DNA from: Agelas oroides
Lineage: Eukaryota; Porifera; Demospongiae; Agelasida; Agelasidae
Assembly: GCA_949130485.1 (NCBI GenBank)
Contig: OX422183.1
Location: 31,714,640 to 31,778,639, forward strand
Reading direction: 5' to 3'
DNA length: 64,000 nucleotides
The notes below the pieces were generated by a model. That model searched no databases. It was not told the origin of the DNA and saw only the letters and a list, made by a program, of their open reading frames with translations. Positions 28,730 through 43,550 of the stretch are shown here, one piece after another. The position numbers were made by a program, and so were the translations under genes. Within the stretch, counting starts at the first letter, position 1. Each line of letters begins with the position of its first letter.

Positions 28730-31700
28730 ATGCACCCCCACTGGATGTTCCTGCTTCTGCTATCATGGACTGCCACAGCAGAGCAGTTCTATGTCGTACC
28801 CAGCGGTAGCACAAGTTGCCCCAAAGATCCTTGCTACACTCTGACTGATGTAGTACAAAACTCATCTCAGTACTTTGCTTCTGACACGGTCATCAAATTC
28901 CTGCCTGGAAACCACCAAACAAACATCACTAGGGATTTCAGTATGCTGATCAAGGATGTGAGAAATATCTCCATGATCGGATTTGATCATACTGACAACA
29001 GCTCAAAGAGTGTGATTCAATGTACAGGACCATTAGGATTTGCATTCCTTGAGGTGAACACACTAAAGATTGACAAATTTCTAATTGTGGGGGACAAATT
29101 CCCATGAACATCAAAGTCCAATACAAGCTACTCAAACCAGGTTCATTTCTGACCGTCTTCTTCCTAAAAACAACTAATGTAACCATATCTGAGGTGAATA
29201 TAAGCAATTCTACAGGAGCAGGGATAATAGGAGTCAACATGTTTGGAGTTTCAAACATTTCCCAGACTGTACTCAGTGGTAACAGACCAAATTGCTTGAT
29301 CATTTTTCAGGAGCACTTTAAATTAAAAGATATTCAACCTACCCATTTCAACATTGCCAACACACACGTGATGTTTGGAAAAACACCAAAAGATTTACAA
29401 ACACCTCATAACTGGGGTGCTACCGGACTTGGTATTTTTCTGGCGCAGACTACATTCAATGTCCATATTCACATAACCGATGTTAAAACATGCAATAATA
29501 TAAGAAAGGAAGGTTGGTATGGCAATCTTCGATTTGTCATTGAAAATTGGGAATGTCAATGTTCACTGATTCAAGTCAAAGAAGTTGCGAACACTAACAC
29601 CGTGGAGGAGAACGATAGGACACAATTACGTCTACAATCCATTAATAAGAAAAGTGCTCAGTTACCAGGTTGCATATGCTCAAAACCAGCTGAAGAGGAA
29701 AACAATGTTCAGATTTCAGACAGTTATTTTGAAGGGGTGAGCATACGGATAGATGCAGATACAAAGAATTGTGATATTAGAATAAAACTGCAGAACATTA
29801 CTGTGAACAATAATATACTTCACATTTCAGGAATGAGGTCTATCGAAATACAAGATATGAATCAAAGTACAGGAATGTTAATAGATGACAGTAACATCAC
29901 AGTTTCTGGAAGATGCCACTTCATGCACACACACAATATATATACAAGGATAGTCAGCTTATTCAGAAGCAACATATCCTTTTACGATGTTAAATTCATT
30001 GGAAATAGGGTTGAACAAGATACTGTGTTACTTGGCAACAACTCTACAATAAAGTTTCAACATACAGCAGAGCTAGTGGGAAATCAAGGCAGGGTGTGTG
30101 GCGTCATAGCACTGTACAACAGTTCTCAATTGGTTTTCGGAGAGCAAAGTAATGTCACCTTCCTGAGGAACTACGCCCAGCAGTATGGAGGTGCTATACT
30201 AGTTGATGGTTCAACAATAGTTGTGGAATCAGAAGCAATGGCAGCATTCATAGAAAATAAAGCCTATAACGGTGGAGCACTAGCATTTCAAAATGATGCC
30301 AGAATAATGTTGAAATCAAACAGTCAAATCACCTTCAAAAAAAATCATGCTCAGCAATATGGAGGTGCCTTATATGTAGAAGAACCAACACCAGAAATCC
30401 ATTTTCATTTGTATAGTTACACAATTAGATGTTTCTTCAACCTGCCACCACATTTCCATACAATTCCAAGATTGATGTTCGCAAACAACACTGCTGATAC
30501 TGCTGGTAGTAGCCTCTACGGTGGATGGGTCAATTTCTGTACCAACAGCAAAGGTAAACCAAGCACACTTGTTTTCAATGAAATGTTTCATTTTCAACCT
30601 CTACCAGCAGTATCTTCTAATCCCACAAGAGTTTGTGTATGTATCAACGATCTTCCGGACTGCACCATCACCCACTACAATGTCACAGCCTACCCTGGTG
30701 AGACATTTCAAATACCTGCAGTTGCAGTGGGACAAATGCTTGGAACAGTACCTTTTACAGTACAGAGTAGGTTCTCTTCAGTTAACTCCAGTACCCCACC
30801 AAAACTGAAATCATTACAGAAAACACAAGTGGTCAGAAAAGGTTGCACAAATTTAACATACACTATTGTATCTAGTTTTTACAATGAAGACATGACGTTG
30901 ACAGTAGACAAAATTGATAAGCTACCTACCCATTTTATCATTCAATATTACGAACTTCCTCTAGTATTTAGGAACCTGCATGTACATATTCAACTGAATC
31001 CTTGTCCATTAGGGTTTGTGTTGAACAATTCCTCATGCATCTGCCATCCCAAACTACATTATGGCTGCAACATTGACACCCAGAAGGTCTACAGACAATC
31101 AACAACATGGATCAATGCAACGCTTACTAATACTTCACAGTATGGGGTCTTATTCCATGAGCACTGCCCATTTGACTACTGTAAGCCTAAAAGCAATGAT
31201 CTTGACTTGGAGGACCCTAATCAGCAGTGTGCATTCTATCGCTCTGGCATCCTCTGTGGAGCATGTCAACACAACCTCAGTCATGTCTTTGGAACATCTG
31301 CATGTAGGGAGTGCTCAAGTCTGTGGGCCTTGCTTTGGGTTCCAGTCATTGCCTTAGCTGGGATAGCTCTAGTGGTGCTTTTGATTGTACTAAACCTCAA
31401 TGTGTCTGTGGGAACAATCAATGGACTCATCTTCTATGCTAACATAGTGAGAGCCAACCATGCTACTTTCTTCCCTCCCAATACAACCAACTCATTCCTC
31501 AGCTGGTTCATAGCCTGGATCAACCTAGACCTCGGCATTGAGACCTGTTTCTACAATGGGCTGGACGCCTATGTCAAAACATGGCTACAGTTTGTTTTCC
31601 CACTCTACATCTGGTTCCTGATCATCACAATCATAGTACTGAGTCACTACTACACACTTGCAGCAAGGCTGAGTGGTAGAAATGCAGTGCCAGTCCTGGC

Positions 31701-32544
31701 AACACTCTTCCTCATGTCCTATGCAAAGCTACTTCGAATCATCATCACTGTATTCCAATCAACTGAGCTCGAGTACCCCGATAACTCTGTGAGGAAGGTG
31801 TGGTTTTATGATGGTAATGTTGACTACTTGAAAGGCAAACACATTCCACTCTTCATAGCTGCTCTACTCCTACTTCTCATTTCCCTTCCCTACACAGCCA
31901 TCCTCATTTTCATCCAGTACCTCCAACACTGGTCCAGTTACGAAGTGCTGTTTTGGGTGAAGAAACTGAAGCCACTCTTTGATGCATACACTGGACCCTA
32001 CAAAGACAGACACCGTTACTGGACTGGACTACTCCTGTTAGTTCGCATTGTACTCTTCTTCATATTCTCACTGAACACTCGTGGAAGTCCTGAGATTAAT
32101 CTGCTGGCAATCATTGCAACAGTGCTCTTACTGTTCATGCAATTGGCAGTTGCTGGTGGTGTCTATAAGACATGGTCTCTGAACATTATCGAGTACTCCT
32201 CCTTCCTCAACCTTGGTATTTTGGCATCTGCCACAACGGTCACTACGTGGGGGCAAAAAGCAGTTGTATACACATCAGCTAGCATTGCGTTCGCTCTTTT
32301 CATCCTTATTGTTGTATTCCATACAGTTACAAAGTTAAAATCTTCACAGTTATGCAATTGGATTCCTGCAAACACTGTAAGAAAAGTGCAAGTTAAGTTA
32401 TCCAAACTCAGATCAGCTCTAAGGAAGCTCTGCCACAAGTGGAGAAGCACCCAGCCAAGCACTCAACCAGGAGTAAGTCACTTTTCAGTTGAACTGCGTG
32501 AGTCACTGCTGGAGTCACATGACTGTTCTGAAAGAACCTTCTGA
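28730..32544 (+). pseudogene. Beta-helix / multi-pass membrane protein, array copy 5 (N-terminal frameshift)
   Basis: The first frame (signal peptide MHPHWMFLLLLSWTATA, EQFYVVPSG...) stops at 29107. The remaining 1,146 residues are in another frame starting by 29104. Upstream of that ATG the second frame still encodes a conserved NCGG element that aligns with FCGA of the paralogues. The break is therefore an indel near 29071-29085, not a new start. Downstream, all modules and membrane segments are intact, including KPLFDAYTGPYKDRHRYW and ESLLESHDCSERTF. If translation began at 29104 the product would lack a signal peptide. The last two thirds are almost identical to copy 1 at 2414-6242. Confidence 0.8.
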
Positions 32545-32662
32545 CAAGTAGTTGTGTACTATGGATTATTTTACAAGAGAAACGTTCCTATCACCTTGAC
32601 AGTTAATGGACACCAATAACGGACATGTTGAGTCTGTATACAACAAGTTATACGCTAACAAT

Positions 32663-33345
32663 TATGGGGTGCCATATGTCTCAAAATTAAAAAATAAAAG
32701 GGTATTTGTATATGCAGCACAGAGTATACAAATCCAGTGCAGGATTTATAAATCCAGCCAGGTATATATATATATCCAGCCAGGGATTTATATATCTAGC
32801 ACAGGATTTATATATCCAGCACAGGATGTATATATCTAGCACAGGATTTATATATCCAGCACAGGATGTATATATCCAGCCAGGGATTTATATATCCACC
32901 ACAGGATTTATATATCCAGCACAGGATGTATATATCTAGCACAGGATTTATATATCCAGCACAGGATGTATATATCCAGCCAGGGATTTATATATCCACC
33001 ACAGGATTTATAAATCCAGCCAGGGATTTATATATCCAGCCAGGGATTTATATATCCTGCACGGGATTTACCATCTATGGTCACAGAATATAGTCACGTG
33101 TTACCCCGCGCGCGCGCGTGTGATCACGTGACGTAAGAAGCGCAATGGTGTGACGATCACGAGTAGGTCTGCCTTGCTGACTTGCAGTACTGCCACTCAG
33201 GAGAGTATCGCGGTATGGCTGGATTACCTTCATTCGGGACGGTGAACGTAGGCGCTCTGTCGAATGCCATTGCTGTTGCCATCCAGCAAGCCAGCGTTAG
33301 CCGTCATAGTTCGGGTCAATCGTTCTCCACCTCGGTGAATGTGAC
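32663..33345. repeat. Left terminal inverted repeat
   Basis: Pairs with 39300-39795 plus 41632-41796 on the opposite strand; the right arm is split by a nested insertion. 32755-33085 consists of about 20-bp units of the TTTATATATCCAGCACAGGA type. Next come a CG-rich segment with CACGTG-like motifs and the first exon of the gene. Similarity fades after about 33321-33345. Confidence 0.85.
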
Positions 33346-36300
33346 GGCTAATAACGGAGCCACTCGTCAGCAAGCCACTACTGGCACTGAGGGTCCTTTC
33401 CTACACCAAACCCAGTCTTCAGCAAGCGGATCAAGTACAGATGAACATGAACGTGGCTCAGGGTAAGTGTTAAGTAATAAGCAGCATGAAAGGAAGCATA
33501 ATTGAAAAAGCTTTGGTGTAGCCAGGCTAAAGCAGAAAATCTGGGAATGATCTGGCTTATCAGGGAAGTTGTACAGATGAGACGTAAGACATGGGCATAG
33601 TGGGTGCATTTAACAGTGAATGCAGTAAGTAGAAGCTGTAAGTATAGTTTTACTGCACAGTGTCATAGAGCACGAGTGCAAGCCAGCACTGCAATCTGAT
33701 TGCAGTGTACACTGAATGTCAGCAATTTCAGTATAGGCATGGATAACACTTGGTATATGCATTTCACTAGGTTCTTCGCTGTACTTGAGAAACTGGCAAT
33801 GCTAGACTATGAAAAGTAACCATGCTCTTTTATTTTTCCCTTCAGTTCAGCCCGTATTATTTTACCATCCTTCCTTAAGAGAAAGGGCTTGGAAGGGAGA
33901 GCTGCGACTAGTCACTCAAAGCGCCCAAAGGTAGCTCAGTGCTGGGATAGGGACATAGTTTGCTTACCACAGCAGTCAAGTCCATCCACTCGCTTGCCGT
34001 ATCCTCGTGGAAAGTATCGTTCCTGGCTAGCAGTGAATGGACTTATTGGAAAGATTCGGCTGATGTCAACTATGACTGTGAAAGAGGTAGAAGATGAGGT
34101 GCGATCTGTTTTTCACAAGGCAATGAGCGGAAGGAGTGACTTCCCATTCACTTTTCTTCAACCAGCTGGTGCTGGCAGCAGAACCCTCACAATTCCGTCA
34201 GTATCATCATCATTCAGCTGGACAGCACAACAAGTAGCCAAACTTGGGCCAAACAAGCAGTCCATATACATTCTTGCAAGGGATAAGCTTGCAGTGGAGT
34301 CAGAGGTCAGTTTGAATTCATGCTAATGCTAGGAATATTGATAAAAACTTGTATGTGTATCAGGCTAAACCCAAAGGAGGCAAGATATGGTTGAACTTTA
34401 CCAATTAAAATGACTGGGGTCATTGCTAATTGCTTTCTGTATCTCAACAGACCTACCCTCTTGGCTTTTATTGAGAGGGGTCCCACTTTCTAATCAAGGT
34501 TCAAGGCTTGGCCCAGTCATAAAGAGGCTTTGTATCAAGTAGGGATGATTCCAGGTATTTACTTAACAAAGGTCAACTATGTACTACCTGTGTTAGGCTA
34601 AACCATTCCAGGCAGCAAGCAGTTGCCAAGCACTGGGACAAGTAATACTAGTATGGAAGCCCCTAGTTCCTCACCAGTCACTCCTAGATTTTATTATCCT
34701 TGGTGTTATTCATTGCAAAACACAAATAGAATGGGATTTGATGTAACTCTATAACACACTTTAGAGTGATAGTGGCTCAGAGTCTGATGATGGCTTGCAG
34801 ACTGAAGTCCAGACTGAGGAAGGAGAGAAAGACAACTATCCAGGTGATAACAGACAAGAAAGAGTGCGAGAAGATATAGAAGAAGTTGACCAAAGTGGTG
34901 GAGTGTACAGGTAACTGAATCCTTTTTATGACCCCTCCTAACATGTATATAGGATATTTCCATATGGATTTACCTCAAGTCTACTTTTAATTGTGTACTA
35001 ATTCTAGCTATTTAGCGACTACACAAAAAATCGCTAAAATTAGTGCACGCCATTATAAGGTCGCGGCCTAGAGTCTGGGTATGATTAGCCTCATACCCAG
35101 GCTCTTAAGAATGACATGTTATGGCTCTCCTGACCTCATTGCACTATCGTGTTGAAGAGCTGGCGAAGGGCCTTGTTACAAGGTGGTACCTTTTGTGATG
35201 TCTTATGGCCTGATTCCAGAGGATTCCTATGAGCATGCAGCTACTCCACTTGACATGAGACAGTGTTAACAAGGCAGTCTTTAAAAAGACTTGATATGTC
35301 TCGGCACGACTTGGTATATGTGGAAGTGGTCATTAATTACTAGTTAGCCTTACATTAGTTTTAGTGGAAGACAGAGCTGTCTGTATAATGTACATAATCA
35401 ACGATATGCAGACTAGCACAAACAGGGTCATGCTTGCTGTGTCATCATTAATATGGCATTACATGACCTTATGATGTATGTACGGGAGCCGTCTCTGTGT
35501 CTCGGCACTCCGGTGCCGAGACAAAAATTTGTCTTGTGCATGTGTACACTTTTACATCATCATTACATCATACTTAATAATAGGTACAAAGACAATACTA
35601 AAAATAGAATGGTTTGTCTAATATAGTACACCTTTGATTTCGATTGCCTACTTTCAATACCACATTCTATGTATATTTTGTTGTAGGAGGTATGCAAATC
35701 TTATTGATCTTACTGTCATGAGTAATGATGAAGGCGACATTTCAGATGAAAGTGAAATAGATGATCTTCCGCCTGCACCTATTACTCTGGCTGCTGCACC
35801 ACTGAGAAGGTACATGTGATAATGTACACCTTGTATAATAGAACTAAGTGCCTATAGGCATGGACAACCACACTGTAGAATAATTGGAAAGGGAGGGGCA
35901 TTTTTAGTCAATCTCTGTAAAAGTTTTCTTTGTGTAACAAGTCAATAAGGCTTGAATTCAAAAAAGCATAGGTGGTTGAAATTCAGCTTTGATCCTTGTT
36001 ATATACTGTTGACCTTTGGGTTGATTGAATCATTCCCTTTTTTCCACTGACCTTGAATAGTACTTTTGACTCAGCCTTGTCATCATGCCTCCCTAATTGC
36101 ATGAACTTATGGTGAGGTGCAACTTATTCACCATGCTGTGCATGCCCTATCAGTAATAGAAAGTAAAATGGTCTTGGGGTTTGACTACTTGTTCAGTGTA
36201 TTACTTGTTCACAATTTAGGTCTGAACCTGTCAAGCATGACTACATTGTGGCCAAAAATGTGTTGCAGCAACACCAGTGCAAGGTAATCACTGGTCGTGA

Positions 36301-37763
36301 TGAAGAAGACCATCAGCGTATTTGTGTCCGCAGGAGCCACCTCTTTTCAGATGCTGCACGTGCATTCTCAAGGCCAAATTTTAATGTGTCCAAACTGTTG
36401 AAGGTAGTTTTTGTTGGCGAACCATCAGTTGATGAAGGTGGGCCACGGCGGGAATTCTTTCAGTTTCTAATGAAAGAAGCTTTCGCATCATCTGGCCTTT
36501 TTGCTGGCTGGCCCCAAAATGTTGTTCCCATCCACAGTGTGGAGGCAGTTGCTGCCAACAGCTACTACATTGTTGGAAAAATGATTGCAACGTGTCTGGT
36601 ACAAGGTGGTCAACCCCCGGTTTGCTTTGCTGCTGCTGTAGCTGATTATCTTGTCTTTGATGAAGTTAAAAGTGAACCATCCTTGAATGACATCCCTGAC
36701 CACACTGTTCGGAATAAGTTGGAGAAGGTATGTGCAAAGCCATGCATCCTATAAATGTATCCCATTCCCTAAAGTACATTAATCAGTGAACTATGTTATT
36801 CATTCTGTAATGTTTTACGAAATATGTAAATAATTTGTGCTATGGCTACAACATCTATTCTCCCATAATCACTCATTACATAATCAGCTGTATGCCAAAC
36901 CACTTTCCTGGAATATTGACTGTACACCTGTAGGTACAGGCGGCCAATTCTACCGAGGAGATCAGAGAGGTGGTTGAACGGGAACTTGATTTCCGTTTTG
37001 AATGTGGCTACCTGAAACCAACAAGTCAAATGCAGCTGGCTGATAAACATCACCTTGTCAAATGTGTTTGGCTACACTACGTTTTCTTTGTTCCTCACGC
37101 CGAGTTAGAGCAACTGCGGAAGGGCCTACGAGAAACCCTCCAACTTGAATTGTTAGTATGCCTTCACCCACACGAGATATGGAGTCTTCTTGTGGCATCG
37201 TCAGACTTTGAAGTGTCTACAGAGTTTTTCCTAGACTCATTTGCAATCTGTTATTCAGAGCAAGGCTGTAACAAGCGTACTGCTGAGGAAGCTGTCATCC
37301 TCCATTGGAATGACTATGTCACTGACTGTGAGGGTAAGTGACATAGTGTATATGACCCACTTGTGCTCACATAAACTCTTGATAACCTGGCTCACATGCA
37401 CATATCTACCCATTTCGCTGAAAGTTACATTAATCACATGACTGTCAGTATAGTGAAATGGCTACTATAATACTAATACAAACTGATGACTATTTGCACT
37501 GATTACATTTATTTCCTACAGATAGAGGAAGTGTTTCATTAGGTGATATCCTACACTTTGTTTCGGGATCTACCAAGCTGCCTGCAGCTGGTTTCCACTG
37601 CACACCTAAGGTCTGCTTCACAGATGAGTTGTGCCTTCCCAGAACATCAACGTGTGACCTTAGCATCACATTCCCAAGGTCATTTGGATCTCTAACGTAT
37701 AAAGACTTTAAAGAGAAAATGAACATGTGTGTTTGTGACTCTTTTGGTTTTGGCAAGCCTTGA
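33215..37763 (+). CDS. Transposon-encoded HECT-type E3 ubiquitin ligase, seven exons
   Basis: I infer exons 33215-33462, 33846-34305, 34765-34910, 35687-35809, 36220-36727, 36934-37333 and 37522-37763. All introns are GT-AG, and the total is 2,127 bases, an exact 708 codons plus stop. Exon 1 (MAGLPSFGTVNVGALSNAIA...) lies in the terminal repeat and is Ser/Gly/Gln-rich. Exons 2-4 give a basic region (YPRGKYRSWLAVNGL) and an acidic linker (SDSGSESDDG, SDESEIDDLPP). Exons 5-7 are the HECT domain: the N-lobe motif FVGEPSVDEGGPRREFF and the C-lobe GF..TPKVCF...LPRTSTCDLSITFP, with the expected catalytic Cys in STC. HECT enzymes accept ubiquitin on this Cys and pass it to substrates. Its purpose in transposition is unknown. 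Confidence 0.85.
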
Positions 37764-37948
37764 AACTGTCAACTAATATTATCCTGCAGTTATGTAATGC
37801 ATATACTCCATCACCTAAATCACTGTCCAATTATGTGTGCATGTGTGTGTGTGTGAGTGAGTGAGAGGAAGGGTTCATTCGCATTTTGAATTGTCGATCA
37901 TGCTTCGTATATACTATGTACACAGATGAAATGAACATTTATACATAT
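37764..37948. other. Gap between the two convergent transposon genes
   Basis: Holds a short (GT)n/(GAGT) tract and the 3' ends of both convergent genes. No gene. Confidence 0.6.
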
Positions 37949-39425
37949 TCATGATTCAGAAACACACTGACTACAACCCAAACTCAAATGATGTCCAGCC
38001 ATCTGAATAGCCTGAATGTACAACATTTTGCCGTGATCTGAGCATGCACCTAGTGGATCTATGTTGTGTAAGTTGTGAGTTAACAAGGTACATGGAATGA
38101 AAGAAATTCGTGGAACATTGACATGTTCTCCCGTTAATTCAGATACATCAATATCTCCATCTAATGAGGGTACATTATAACCATAGTAACGAACCAAATG
38201 ATTCACCCCTTCAAAGAACAACTGATAGGGAGTCATGCTTCCTTCACTTGAGAGAGCATGGTGGTTCCAACTTTCCTGAAACTCAGAAATGCTTTTGTTG
38301 ATGCGTCGTAGAAATATGTAATGAAGACAATACAAGTCGACTTCATTGAGAGGATCAAGAAGATCCTCACTTTCCAGGTTCCTGAATGTATCAGCATAGG
38401 TACTTGCTATACATCGATGTACATCACGCCACATTCTCTCGATTCTTTCGTTGTGCACAGAACTCCCTGTCAGTACACGAGAATAGTCGTTGCTGTGACT
38501 AAGTATCATGCACTTCCAGATCCCCACATTCTCCCCTCCGTGGTCCGAACGGACATAATTAGGTAAACTAAATCTTGAAATTGCCTTGCAGAACGAATCA
38601 AGTACTGTTGTTGCCCGATTGTTGTCTGCACACTTGAGGTAGGTGATTGTGCGTGAAAATCCATCTACAGCCCCATGAATCACAAAATGCCACCTTATAA
38701 GCTTATGGTGACCATCTACGTGCCAAATATAATTAGGATGGGGAACTGAATAAATGCGACGTCGGACAACTGAGCGCTTTCGAGTGACAGTACTGATATG
38801 GTCAACACGATGGATGGCATTACGAAGAGCATGACGAGGTACTTTTATTCCTTGTCTGAGTAGGTGGCCTTGCAATAACACTTCACCATCATTGGGATGG
38901 TCCTGTTTTATAGAACAAATGACTTCATCTAGTTGTTCATCTGATACTTGTGTATAGTCATCCGAAGAAACACCAGCCTCCTCGAGCCTTCTGTACAGTG
39001 TGGCCCTAGATAACCCCAAAATGGTAGCTATTTTGGTCCACTTATAATGAAGTGCTCTCAGCTCCAAAATATCATTGATGTCCACATCCACTCGAGGTCT
39101 ACCAACTGATGAAGGCCTGGGGAGAATAGGAAACCCCTGTCAAACTTAGTAGGTAATTCACTTTACAACTACTATCAGGCTTTATTTGTAACCCTTACCC
39201 TGAGCCACATTCTTGTCCATCTGAACTTGACCTACTTGATGGAGTCTGCGCTTGGGCTTGGGATGAACCCGAACTGGCTTGCTGATGAGTAGTGCTGTCA
39301 TTCACCGAGGTAGGCAGCGATTGACCCGAACTATGACGGCTAACGCTGGCTTGCTGGATGGCAACAGCAATGGCATTCGACAGAGCGCCTACGTTCACCG
39401 TCCCGAATGAAGGTAATCCAGCCAT
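37949..39425 (-). CDS. Transposon DDE integrase/transposase, two exons
   Basis: Exon 1 is 39425-39199 and exon 2 is 39116-37949, with an 82-bp GT-AG intron. The total is 1,395 bases, 464 aa plus stop, and the joint reads SGPSSVGRPRVDVDIND in frame. Exon 1 shares MAGLPSFGTVNVGALSNAIA with the HECT gene because both lie in the terminal repeats. Exon 2 begins with a helix-turn-helix (KWTKIATILGLSRATLYRRL). The rve/DDE core follows: first Asp in WHVDGHHKLIRW, second in YVRSDHGGENVG, and Glu in SVHNERIERMWRDV, 31-34 residues later. A C-terminal segment (SWNHHALSSEGSMTPYQLFF) is typical of this integrase family in animals. The reading frame is intact. Confidence 0.85.
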
Positions 39426-39795
39426 ACCGCGATACTCTCCTGAGTGGCAGTACTGCAAGTCAGCAAGGCAGACCTAGACCTACTCGTGATCGTCACACCA
39501 TTGCACTTCTTACGTCACGTGATCACACGCACGCGCGCGGGGTAACACGTGACTATATTCTGTGACCATAGATGGTAAATCCCGTGCAGGATATATAAAT
39601 CCCTGGCTGGATTTATAAATCCTGTGGTGGATATATAAATCCCTGGCTGGATATATACATCCTGTGCTGGATATATAAATCCTGTGCTAGATATATAAAT
39701 CCTGTGCTGGATATATAAATCCTGTGGTGGATATATAAATCCCTGGCTGGATATATACATCCTGTGCTGGATATATAAATCCTGTGCTAGATATA
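39300..39795. repeat. Right terminal inverted repeat, inner part
   Basis: Complement of about 32830-33345 including exon 1. The outermost part (41632-41796) is separated from it by a nested insertion of 1.84 kb. Confidence 0.85.
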
Positions 39796-41354
39796 AAGTC
39801 ACAAAAAAGTTTGCCAAACGCAAACAAGCACATGTAGGGATGAAATCCTCAAAAACCAACCAAACAAGACGAGAACGACACCACAATACTTTTACACCAT
39901 CCCTACATCTTGTGCCATTTTGCCAAAACTGTGTGTTTGTATTTGTTTTTTAGTTGTGTGTAGAAGAGGGTTGTCTTGTAGATGGAAGGGTGTGGCGTGG
40001 GTGTGTTGTGCATAGTGAGTATGTTGTGTTGTTGGTGGTTGCTACTGAGTGTAGCAGGTATGGTCCAAGTTGTGTGTAGAAGGTGTGGAGTGAGTGAGGA
40101 GTGGTGAGTGTGTGTGTTATGTTGGAATGTGCATTATGTTGTTAAGTTTTATGCCTGTTTAGCATGATAGATATGGGTTGTCTTGTATACAGGTGGCTGT
40201 GAAGTGAGTAGTGGTAATTTTGTAATGCTTTGTGAAGGATGGGTTATTTTGTGAGATAGTTGAATGGAGTGAAGTACTATGTTTGTTTGTGGTTGGTGTG
40301 GGCTAATAAGTACAAATGTAGAGGGTTTTGTGTTGTGTACAGGTGGCAAAATGGCACAAGATGTAGGGATGGTGTAAAAGTATTGTGGTGTCGTTCTCGT
40401 CTTGTTTGGTTGGTTTTTGAGGATTTCATCCCTACATGTGCTTGTTTGCGTTTGGCAAACTTTTTTGTGACTTGTTTCTGTTGTTTTTTTTTTGTTGTTG
40501 TGTAACCACACCCCAAGTGAAATGACTTGTTATGTAGTTTATTGTTGATGTTGATGGATTTCTGGAGGATGTTAGCTGTTTGCACTTATCCACTTGACAA
40601 TGGAATCATGGGTGTAACTGTTGTCTAATTGGGTATGTGCATGTGTGTGTGAGTGGTTGTTCTAAGGCACTGTGGTATATACATGACTGTCTACCTGTTC
40701 TGTTGTATGACAGGGTTGTAACACTGTATGTTGTGTATTGTCCAAGGAACAGTTTCTATAGCTGGTTATACATTGTGGGCAGGTGTGTGTAGGTTGTGTA
40801 TGGTGGGTGGCAGGTACATAGGTCATAAAGAGGTAAGGCATAACTGTGGTAAAGGAACCCTTGGAGAGTAAGAGTGTTTTTCCGGGTTCTTCCAGTACTT
40901 GTTACGGGACGCTTGCCTTTTGCTTTCTTTGTTTCGCAGATAGTTCTGCTTATCCCGCGCCCGTTTCTTGTGGACGTTACGCATACTGCGTTCCTTGTCA
41001 AATCCAGCACAAGTACGTCAACTGCTGTATGAAAGTAGCAACATATGCAATCGTTTGGGAATCAATCGATCGTCAAGTTCTCTACGGAAGTAGAATAACC
41101 GCAGCTGCATGCCAACTTCACGTGCTGTAGCTGTTGAACTTCTGTTGACGTAATCGCTATGAATATTCTATTCTAACAAAATGGCGTATAGCAGCAAGCA
41201 TAAGCGTGGGGTTACCTGAGAATCGCCGATTAATTCGACTTCTTTCTTTGAGAACGATGAGTGGTGGGTACAATACCCAGTAATTTATGCTGATCTTTCG
41301 CGTTTGAATCGTTGTAATAGCTTCAGCCGTTGTCGTGCTATCGTGGTGAGCAAA

Positions 41355-41359
41355 AGAAG

Positions 41360-41390
<31 letters not shown>
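41355..41390. repeat. (GAA)n microsatellite
   Basis: About eleven uninterrupted AGA/GAA triplets. Confidence 0.95.
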
Positions 41391-41482
41391 CAGAAGATAG
41401 ACGATTTGCCTTTTTTAGCGACTTGACTGTCAGGTACTTAGCGATGCTTTCCAGCAAATTTAACGATCCTGTTGCCCATGGA

Positions 41483-41631
41483 AGCACTCGATAATGTCTG
41501 ATATGGCTCATGGAGGCCGTTGACTTATCTAACGCGGACATTTCGAGCGTGTCATTTGTGCACTTTGAATGTGGCCACCATTTTTTTTCGGGGTCATCCC
41601 TACATATGGCGTACTACCGTACGCCATGATA
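41483..41631. repeat. Dispersed repeat, copy 2
   Basis: Second copy of the sequence at 1-149, again ending in the GTACGCCATGATA hairpin. Confidence 0.8.
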
Positions 41632-41796
41632 CATCCTGTGCTGGATATATAAATCCTGTGCTAGATATATAAATCCCTGGCTGGATATATATATATACCT
41701 GGCTGGATTTATAAATCCTGCACTGGATTTGTATACTCTGTGCTGCATATACAAATAAATTTTATTTTTTAATTTTGAGACATATGGCACCCCATA

Positions 41797-43550
41797 AACA
41801 ATACCCTGCAGAGTGTGAACCGTTTCACAAAATATTGATTATACATAATTTTTTTTCAATAGCATTTTTTGTAAACTATTTTAGAAATGAATGATGCAAC
41901 AGTTGATGATAAAAGAAGTATAAACAGTAGCTACAACACAGTAAAGTCAGTCGCAGGCCCCAGATCTCCCATCCAGTTTGTGATTGCTTACAAAACTGGA
42001 AGATGCATGGGAAGGCTGGCAAATTTTTACGCATTTCTTGCAAACTTTTTTAGCAACACGTGATGCAATAGATACTTGTGGATATTTGTAGGATGCTCAC
42101 TTAAGGTTACGGGATATAGTTTATTCATAACGTTCAACTGCGCATGCACACAGACGACTCTCTATGGACTTTGAACTGACATGATTAGTGCTGTCAAGTT
42201 GTTTTTTTTCAACCAAAAGTAGCGATCAGTATCTATGGATCCGAAGAGACCTAGTTACCAACGTACTGTACAATGGACAATGCAGGGGCAGACGGAGCCA
42301 TTTTTTGAATATCACTGGCTGTTGTAATTTTACAGAGGCGAAAAGTCACGAGGTGTGTACAGTTTGCTGGACAAGGGGCTATTGCTCAAAAATCAAACGA
42401 CGTTTGCAACAAATGCTCTGTCTGGCCCTCGAGTACGTTGAAAAAAAGTCGATCTGGAGAATCATTCGTTGCTCCCAGTTGCTTGGGAGGTCAAATTTTG
42501 GTTCAAAAGTTTACACAGTTTGACTGCGTATGCATAACCGCTCGTACAAGTTCTCATTGTGAAGAATGTGTTTAGGAGGAAGTACGGGAGCTTTCTTCAT
42601 CTGGAAAATATAGACCTGTGAAATAATCATGCCAATTGATACTTGTTTAGGTACATAGCTTTGCTCCTGTTTTCCAGAAATGAGAGTTCTCGAATGCTAA
42701 TTACATAACAACATAAAATGTTGATTTGCTTTATACTTTTCACCAGCATAAATAACAGTTGGAAGTCTTACCCTCAGTTCTATGTAGTAAATGTATGGCT
42801 TTGATGGAAAATTGAACCAATCCATATACCAAGTGACGTAATACATCAGACTCAGTTAAGGGTACGGGATACATAATGGGGCGCGGTCAACGGTTCAGAC
42901 TTACTAACTGCGAAGTGATTACACAACACTGACTATAGCTGCAAAATATGGAACATGAAAAGGGAGATCCCTCCATCATTGTGAAGTTAATCTACATACT
43001 AATTGCCTGTTCGTACCACCAACAAATTTGGTTGGTGGATTTCAAGAACCCATCAGTGGAACAGTACAGTACAATCAAAGGACTGTCATGTTCCATACAA
43101 ACTAACAAATTTCCCAAAGTCTGTTTTCCAACAACGGTAGCAGCAGTGTATTCATAACCAAACTACTGCACCTAACAACGGTTATGTGGAAAGATTTCCA
43201 AATGTATACACATGTACATGTATACACCATTAAGAGTAAACAGCTTTGTTTCAGGGGATTATAAGGTGTAAATGAAATCCAATAACCCAGTTTCCCAAAG
43301 AAAATGTTTCTTTAACAAAGTATGTTGTATTTAATAACCAGGTTTTCATTGATAAAAAGAAGCTGACTATAGCAATAATTAATTGTATAAACATTCATAT
43401 AGATTATTCAAAACAAAACAGTGTAAATAAGAGCATGTATTCCATTTGTCTATAATTTTGGTAGTCGTATGACTGGATTAGAGCTAAGGCAGCTACACTA
43501 TCTTCAGATCAATCCTAAAAGAGAGCACTGGGTCCAGAAGAAATCCCAAA
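41797..43550. other. Intergenic spacer, copy 2, with local inversion
   Basis: Continues the 3' flank of copy 5 after the transposon and matches 6355-7120. 42576-42970 is inverted relative to 7118-7379 and to the other spacers. 42971-43550 is again in normal orientation and is the promoter-type spacer (near-palindrome TATACACATGTACATGTATA at 43205-43224). No gene. Confidence 0.65.

Follow-up and report, generated by a model that had tools for sequence, protein, structure and literature searches.

An IS3EU-like transposon of the sponge Agelas oroides whose inverted arms appear to supply the first coding exon of two genes

A transposon with two convergent genes

The window, by which we mean the whole 64,000-nucleotide stretch analysed (contig OX422183.1 of Agelas oroides), holds one DNA transposon at 32663-41796, with termini TATGGGGTGCC...GGCACCCCATA and a perfect 6-bp target site duplication, AACAAT, at 32657-32662 on its left and at 41797-41802 on its right. 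The left inverted arm (32663-33472, plus strand) runs from the TATGGGGTGCC terminus through a 20-bp repeat array and a leader to the first exon of a HECT ligase gene and its donor. The right arm, on the minus strand, consists of an inner part with donor, exon, leader and repeat array (39189-39795) and an outer end (41629-41796) that bears the GGCACCCCATA terminus and is 95% complementary to 32684-32831; about 1.83 kb of other DNA (39796-41628), which carries an internal inverted repeat, splits the two. By alignment the arms are complementary at 90% over 320 nt and at 95% over 189 nt, far above chance, and the alignment stops a few bases beyond the exon-1 donor. TRF finds 18.2 copies of the 20-bp tandem unit in the left arm and 11.0 in the inner right arm. 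This inserted segment sits inside the right-arm array, and its inverted repeat is perfect over 130 nt (39796-39925 / 40344-40473). The arms of relatives described below (L022, L023-L025, L029, L032) have family-specific tandem units of 19-21 bp, unrelated in sequence and similar in period. Just upstream of the element, at 29074-32544, lies a long open frame of 1156 aa with hydrophobic stretches resembling membrane spans.

Between the arms are two convergent open gene models, one for a HECT ligase of 7 exons and 708 aa, the other for an integrase of 2 exons and 464 aa. The HECT model, on the plus strand, begins with the left copy of the shared first coding exon (33215-33462, phase 2; ATG at 33215, donor 33462|GTAAGT), which is followed by exon 2 (33846-34305, with consensus splice sites and its acceptor before 33846), exon 3 (34765-34910), exon 4 (35687-35809), exon 5 (36220-36727, where a profile match places the start of the HECT domain), exon 6 (36934-37333) and exon 7 (37522-37763), which matches PF00632 on its own (E 2.6e-5). 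On the spliced model PF00632 covers residues 411-706 (E 8.3e-14, 52.4 bits against a cut-off of 23.9). Near the C-terminus exon 7 encodes LPRTSTCD, and we take the cysteine of LPRTSTC, going by the motif, to be the candidate catalytic residue of the ligase.

The integrase model, on the minus strand, begins with the right copy of the shared exon (39199-39425, phase 2; ATG at 39425, donor 39199|GTAAGG); after an 82-nt intron (39117-39198) and an acceptor before 39116 comes exon 2 (37949-39116), with an HTH and a DDE core (PF24764 rva_4, E 3.6e-75; PF00665 rve; PF02796 HTH_7). Candidate DDE residues are D210, D267 and an E at 299 or 302. Against NCBIfam the protein resembles IS481 (E 9.6e-16) and IS3 (E 2.2e-10), both matches being under the curated cut-offs, and it has a weak likeness to HTLV-2 integrase (E 7e-4). 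Integrase exon 2 has no Met ahead of the HTH and the first catalytic Asp, so that a start further upstream is needed. In HECT exon 2 the first Met sits beyond the stretch resembling other families. In both genes exon 1 runs in frame into exon 2 from a GG|GTAAG donor in phase 2. The original prediction placed the limits of the element and its first splice junctions correctly to the base; on the sequence it was also right that the left arm starts the HECT gene and the right arm the integrase gene, each with start codon, first exon and donor, and that the two exons end at a common GG|GTAAG.

To which group does the element belong? IS3EU / GingerRoot elements are described as having TAYGG..CCRTA ends and 6-bp target duplications (PMC12730594, PMC10045372). 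Ends of this kind are found as TATGGGGTGCC..GGCACCCCATA in the window element and, wherever another element has both ends, as TATGG..CCATA, and all nine elements with both ends have 6-bp duplications (the window element, C18, C3, L022, L029, L023, L024, L025 and L032, the last six read by eye). Together with the IS3/IS481-like integrase, these features appear to fit IS3EU as matched to the published descriptions, which have the end motif, the duplication length and this type of transposase in common with the window element. Fungal IS3EU elements are described with an alpha-kinase as a second gene in opposite orientation, whereas here the second gene is a HECT ligase. Both gene models here start in an arm exon, and neither that arrangement nor a HECT gene figures in the parts of the IS3EU / GingerRoot descriptions compared. 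Among open-access titles and abstracts, none concerned inverted repeats that have a coding exon in common or an IS3EU element with HECT, and none of the open-access papers listed with IS3EU contained 'HECT'.

One exon in two arms

How alike are the two copies of the exon? Their first 108 nt, or 36 codons, are identical; the remainder is alignable but diverged, with two gaps, one of 12 and one of 9 nt, that preserve the frame, and the left copy is 248 nt long versus 227 nt for the right. The claim that ligase and integrase have the same N-terminal peptide, for which 20 residues had been quoted, holds for the first 36 residues and fails for the exon beyond 108 nt.

A search of the 259-Mb genome with the exon of the window element's family, family A, gave at least 8 matches at at least 4 loci, with inverted pairs at 3 of those 4. 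Two of the copies, C18 and C3, have target duplications GGTCCA and TCCAAC, respectively; in these derivatives most of the HECT gene is gone and both arm exons remain. Another copy, C2, kept the HECT gene, with its first exon split by about 7.6 kb, and lost nearly all of the integrase gene. In C3 (L010 5583-5209, minus strand) the left-arm exon runs straight into the last HECT exon, with no intron and with the frame kept, which gives an open frame of 125 aa; C18 has the same fusion junction, but there the frame stops after 74 codons.

Both arms of three family A copies, the window element, C18 (L009) and C3 (L010), were compared. The 108 columns of codons 1-36 hold no fixed left/right substitution, and the 108 columns of codons 37-72 hold 21, together with 21 gap columns and 7 otherwise variable ones (Fisher p 1e-8 for the contrast in fixed differences). 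Within codons 1-36 two columns are copy-specific with both arms agreeing: at offsets 91 and 97, counted from the ATG, a change occurs in both arms of a single copy and in no other (C3 and C18, respectively). These two sites match the trace that exchange between the arms of one copy would be expected to leave. Ten further columns vary in a manner neither side- nor copy-specific, so that such exchange would have been patchy. Taken together, the pattern implies sequence exchange between arms that extends into the exon.

Is the sharing peculiar to family A? The family B element L022 (C17) has an integrase 59% and a HECT ligase 61% identical to those of the window element. Its arms are 94% alike over 614 nt and each contains an exon MA(T/A)PPSTTVNVQTLSNAIAV..., with one change and one 9-nt gap between arms; both gene models splice in phase 2 to exons matching those of the window element, and the target duplication (L022 with L057) is CGGGAA. 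A partial relative, L021, has the right exon only, with a disturbed donor. Two of the six loci with the family B exon are inverted pairs, and in a short derivative with such a pair (L058) one exon has an extra C, a 1-nt change that shifts the frame. In family C the integrase of L029 (C9) is 52% identical to that of the window element over the matched part. The exon (L029, with L056) reads MAGTIDPKALTALAADLLAQVQQQQ... in the left arm and MAGTIDCNTLTALAAGLLAQVQQQQQ... in the right, both in phase 2; the arms differ by a 3-nt gap, 5 nonsynonymous changes and 1 synonymous change, and the target duplication is TATTAA. All six loci with the family C exon are inverted pairs. The short derivatives L054 and L055 have both arms of the right-arm type, intron start included.

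By sequence, then, exon sharing is not a one-off: families B and C have the same arrangement, with all four junctions in phase 2 and in-frame acceptors. The indels between arms within the exon are multiples of three in 4 of 4 cases (12 and 9 nt in A, 9 nt in B, 3 nt in C). Conservation of the shared exon in other copies, a question raised with the original prediction, is borne out by the family A copies and by families B and C as well, with frame and phase kept.

Relatives with separate first exons

The original prediction named relatives whose genes begin outside the repeats as evidence against it, and such relatives exist. In family D (L023-L025) the repeats end ahead of the genes. The HECT exon 1 of this family, MAQGGDDSYK..., in phase 2, was found in L023 and L024; the integrase exon 1, MATCRALVDE..., is also in phase 2, with a junction AGAG|GTCAGT that was joined by eye, the scripted donor list having given none. 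In family E, of which one locus (L032) was read, the integrase frame is uninterrupted from start codon through HTH, the HECT gene starts MAGDFARARN..., and both starts are outside the repeats. In family F (L027) the HECT ATG is outside the repeat; an integrase first exon was sought in L027 and not found. Because the first exons of families D and E are separate and outside the repeats, exon sharing is neither universal nor needed by the group. The generality of the layout is thereby limited, and the layout in the window element stands.

Two further upstream regions were searched for an inverted copy of the exon, and neither has one: upstream of L046 the inverted matches are short and lie at the far end (87% over 89 nt and 94% over 32 nt), and L047 has only a match within its own upstream stretch. 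L026, L028, L030, L031, L033 and L049-L053 are outside the first-exon comparison. Viral contigs were searched for relatives, and none was found.

What history accounts for this distribution? In a tree of 19 integrases, family C falls outside A+B+D+F with branch support of 93/92. Family C is a long branch, and a single A+B+C clade is not rejected (p-AU 0.071). The tree would be compatible with one gain followed by loss in D/F or with two gains. Homology is clear between the A and B peptides (z 8.7, with 0 of 300 shuffles aligning as well) and no more than suggestive between A and C (z 2.5, with 5 of 300 shuffles doing as well). We also considered whether the shared exon was derived from a separate first exon of the D, E or F genes and rejected this, as no peptide pair between A/B/C and D/E/F stood out (best z 1.8, C-E).

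What the arms may do

We propose, with a probability of roughly 0.78, that this is an IS3EU-like transposon of the cut-and-paste kind whose arms serve as element end, as promoter and leader, and as first coding exon, and in which exchange between the arms keeps the opening peptide matched. Each long inverted arm would have three jobs. It would be an element end, with an array of repeats of about 20 bp to which transposase presumably binds; it would provide promoter and leader; and it would provide the first coding exon with its donor. It is most likely that end, promoter region and first exon are together in the arm. Transcription from the left arm would yield the HECT ligase and transcription from the right arm the integrase, probably in co-expression, each first exon being joined in phase 2 to the second exon of its own gene. 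By gene conversion or end repair, the arms would exchange sequence, and this would keep the terminal part alike through about codon 36, so that both proteins would retain one opening peptide, and the linker behind it would drift.

The MuDR element of the maize Mutator system likewise has two convergently transcribed genes, whose promoters are in inverted repeats of about 215 bp, the promoters and start sites being located within these repeats or immediately internal to them; a shared coding exon is not mentioned in the part of that account drawn on here (PMC3440606). MuDR resembles the window element in having two convergent genes that open at inverted repeats, the arm promoters of the latter being putative. 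It differs in belonging to another superfamily and, so far as that part of the account goes, in having no coding exon in its repeat, and is an analogue in working, not a relative.

Does the peptide itself matter to both proteins? Chief among the alternatives to a functional shared peptide is an exon that hitchhikes with a shared promoter. The arms would be kept matched for the sake of ends and promoter, with the exon lying within conversion tracts; the peptide would matter to one protein at most, and the shared function would be that of a promoter and a start codon. We give this account an even chance, and regard it as about as likely as any peptide function in both proteins. Arm-to-arm identity breaks off partway through the exon, where no gene feature lies, as hitchhiking would have it. 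Short derivatives without room for either gene still hold paired exons, and families D and E manage without sharing. In family C the comparison between arms gave no sign of constraint (5 nonsynonymous to 1 synonymous changes). Against hitchhiking, the A-B peptide looks to be under constraint, with dN 0.455 and dS 2.17 over 32 codons (Fisher p 0.002 on rounded counts), though selection through one gene combined with conversion would mimic constraint through both. For the arm-specific linker of family A, dN is 0.348 and dS 0.564.

An amphipathic helix in the peptide was considered and rejected: its hydrophobic moment is no better than that of shuffles, with 338 of 500 as high for the left copy in A and 307 of 500 for C. 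The family B peptide gave a weak signal (38 of 500 shuffles as high), and AlphaFold, given the exon alone, returned a mean pLDDT of 57.3 and placed a short helix over residues 12-22. On these results we make no claim about peptide structure.

A more specific function can be imagined, which we consider unlikely: the shared peptide may be a self-matching docking module that brings the ligase to an integrase assembly at the element ends, for instance for clearing or modifying bound protein. Were this true, the inverted repeat would be a DNA device for matching a protein-protein interface by way of gene conversion.

It is improbable that just one gene uses its arm exon, the other copy being a passive image and the second gene starting from an unrecognised exon. 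The different first exons of the two family D genes are in line with such a view. However, in families A, B and C both junctions are in phase 2 and have a consensus donor and an in-frame acceptor, the full elements of all three families retain frame and donor even in the parts where their arms have diverged, and integrase exon 2 offers no Met before the HTH. A local inverted duplication or assembly artefact, in place of a mobile element, is refuted by the independent target duplications, since copies on other contigs have 6-bp duplications of their own and the same layout occurs in two further families.

Inverted repeats are normally taken for binding sites, at times for promoters; in this element they apparently hold coding sequence for two unrelated genes as well, and exchange between the repeats seems to make the N-termini of two proteins evolve together. 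If transcripts agree, the element would be a clean case from nature in which to study how separate proteins are kept matched by gene conversion, and it would bear on the question of why a transposon carries a ubiquitin ligase.
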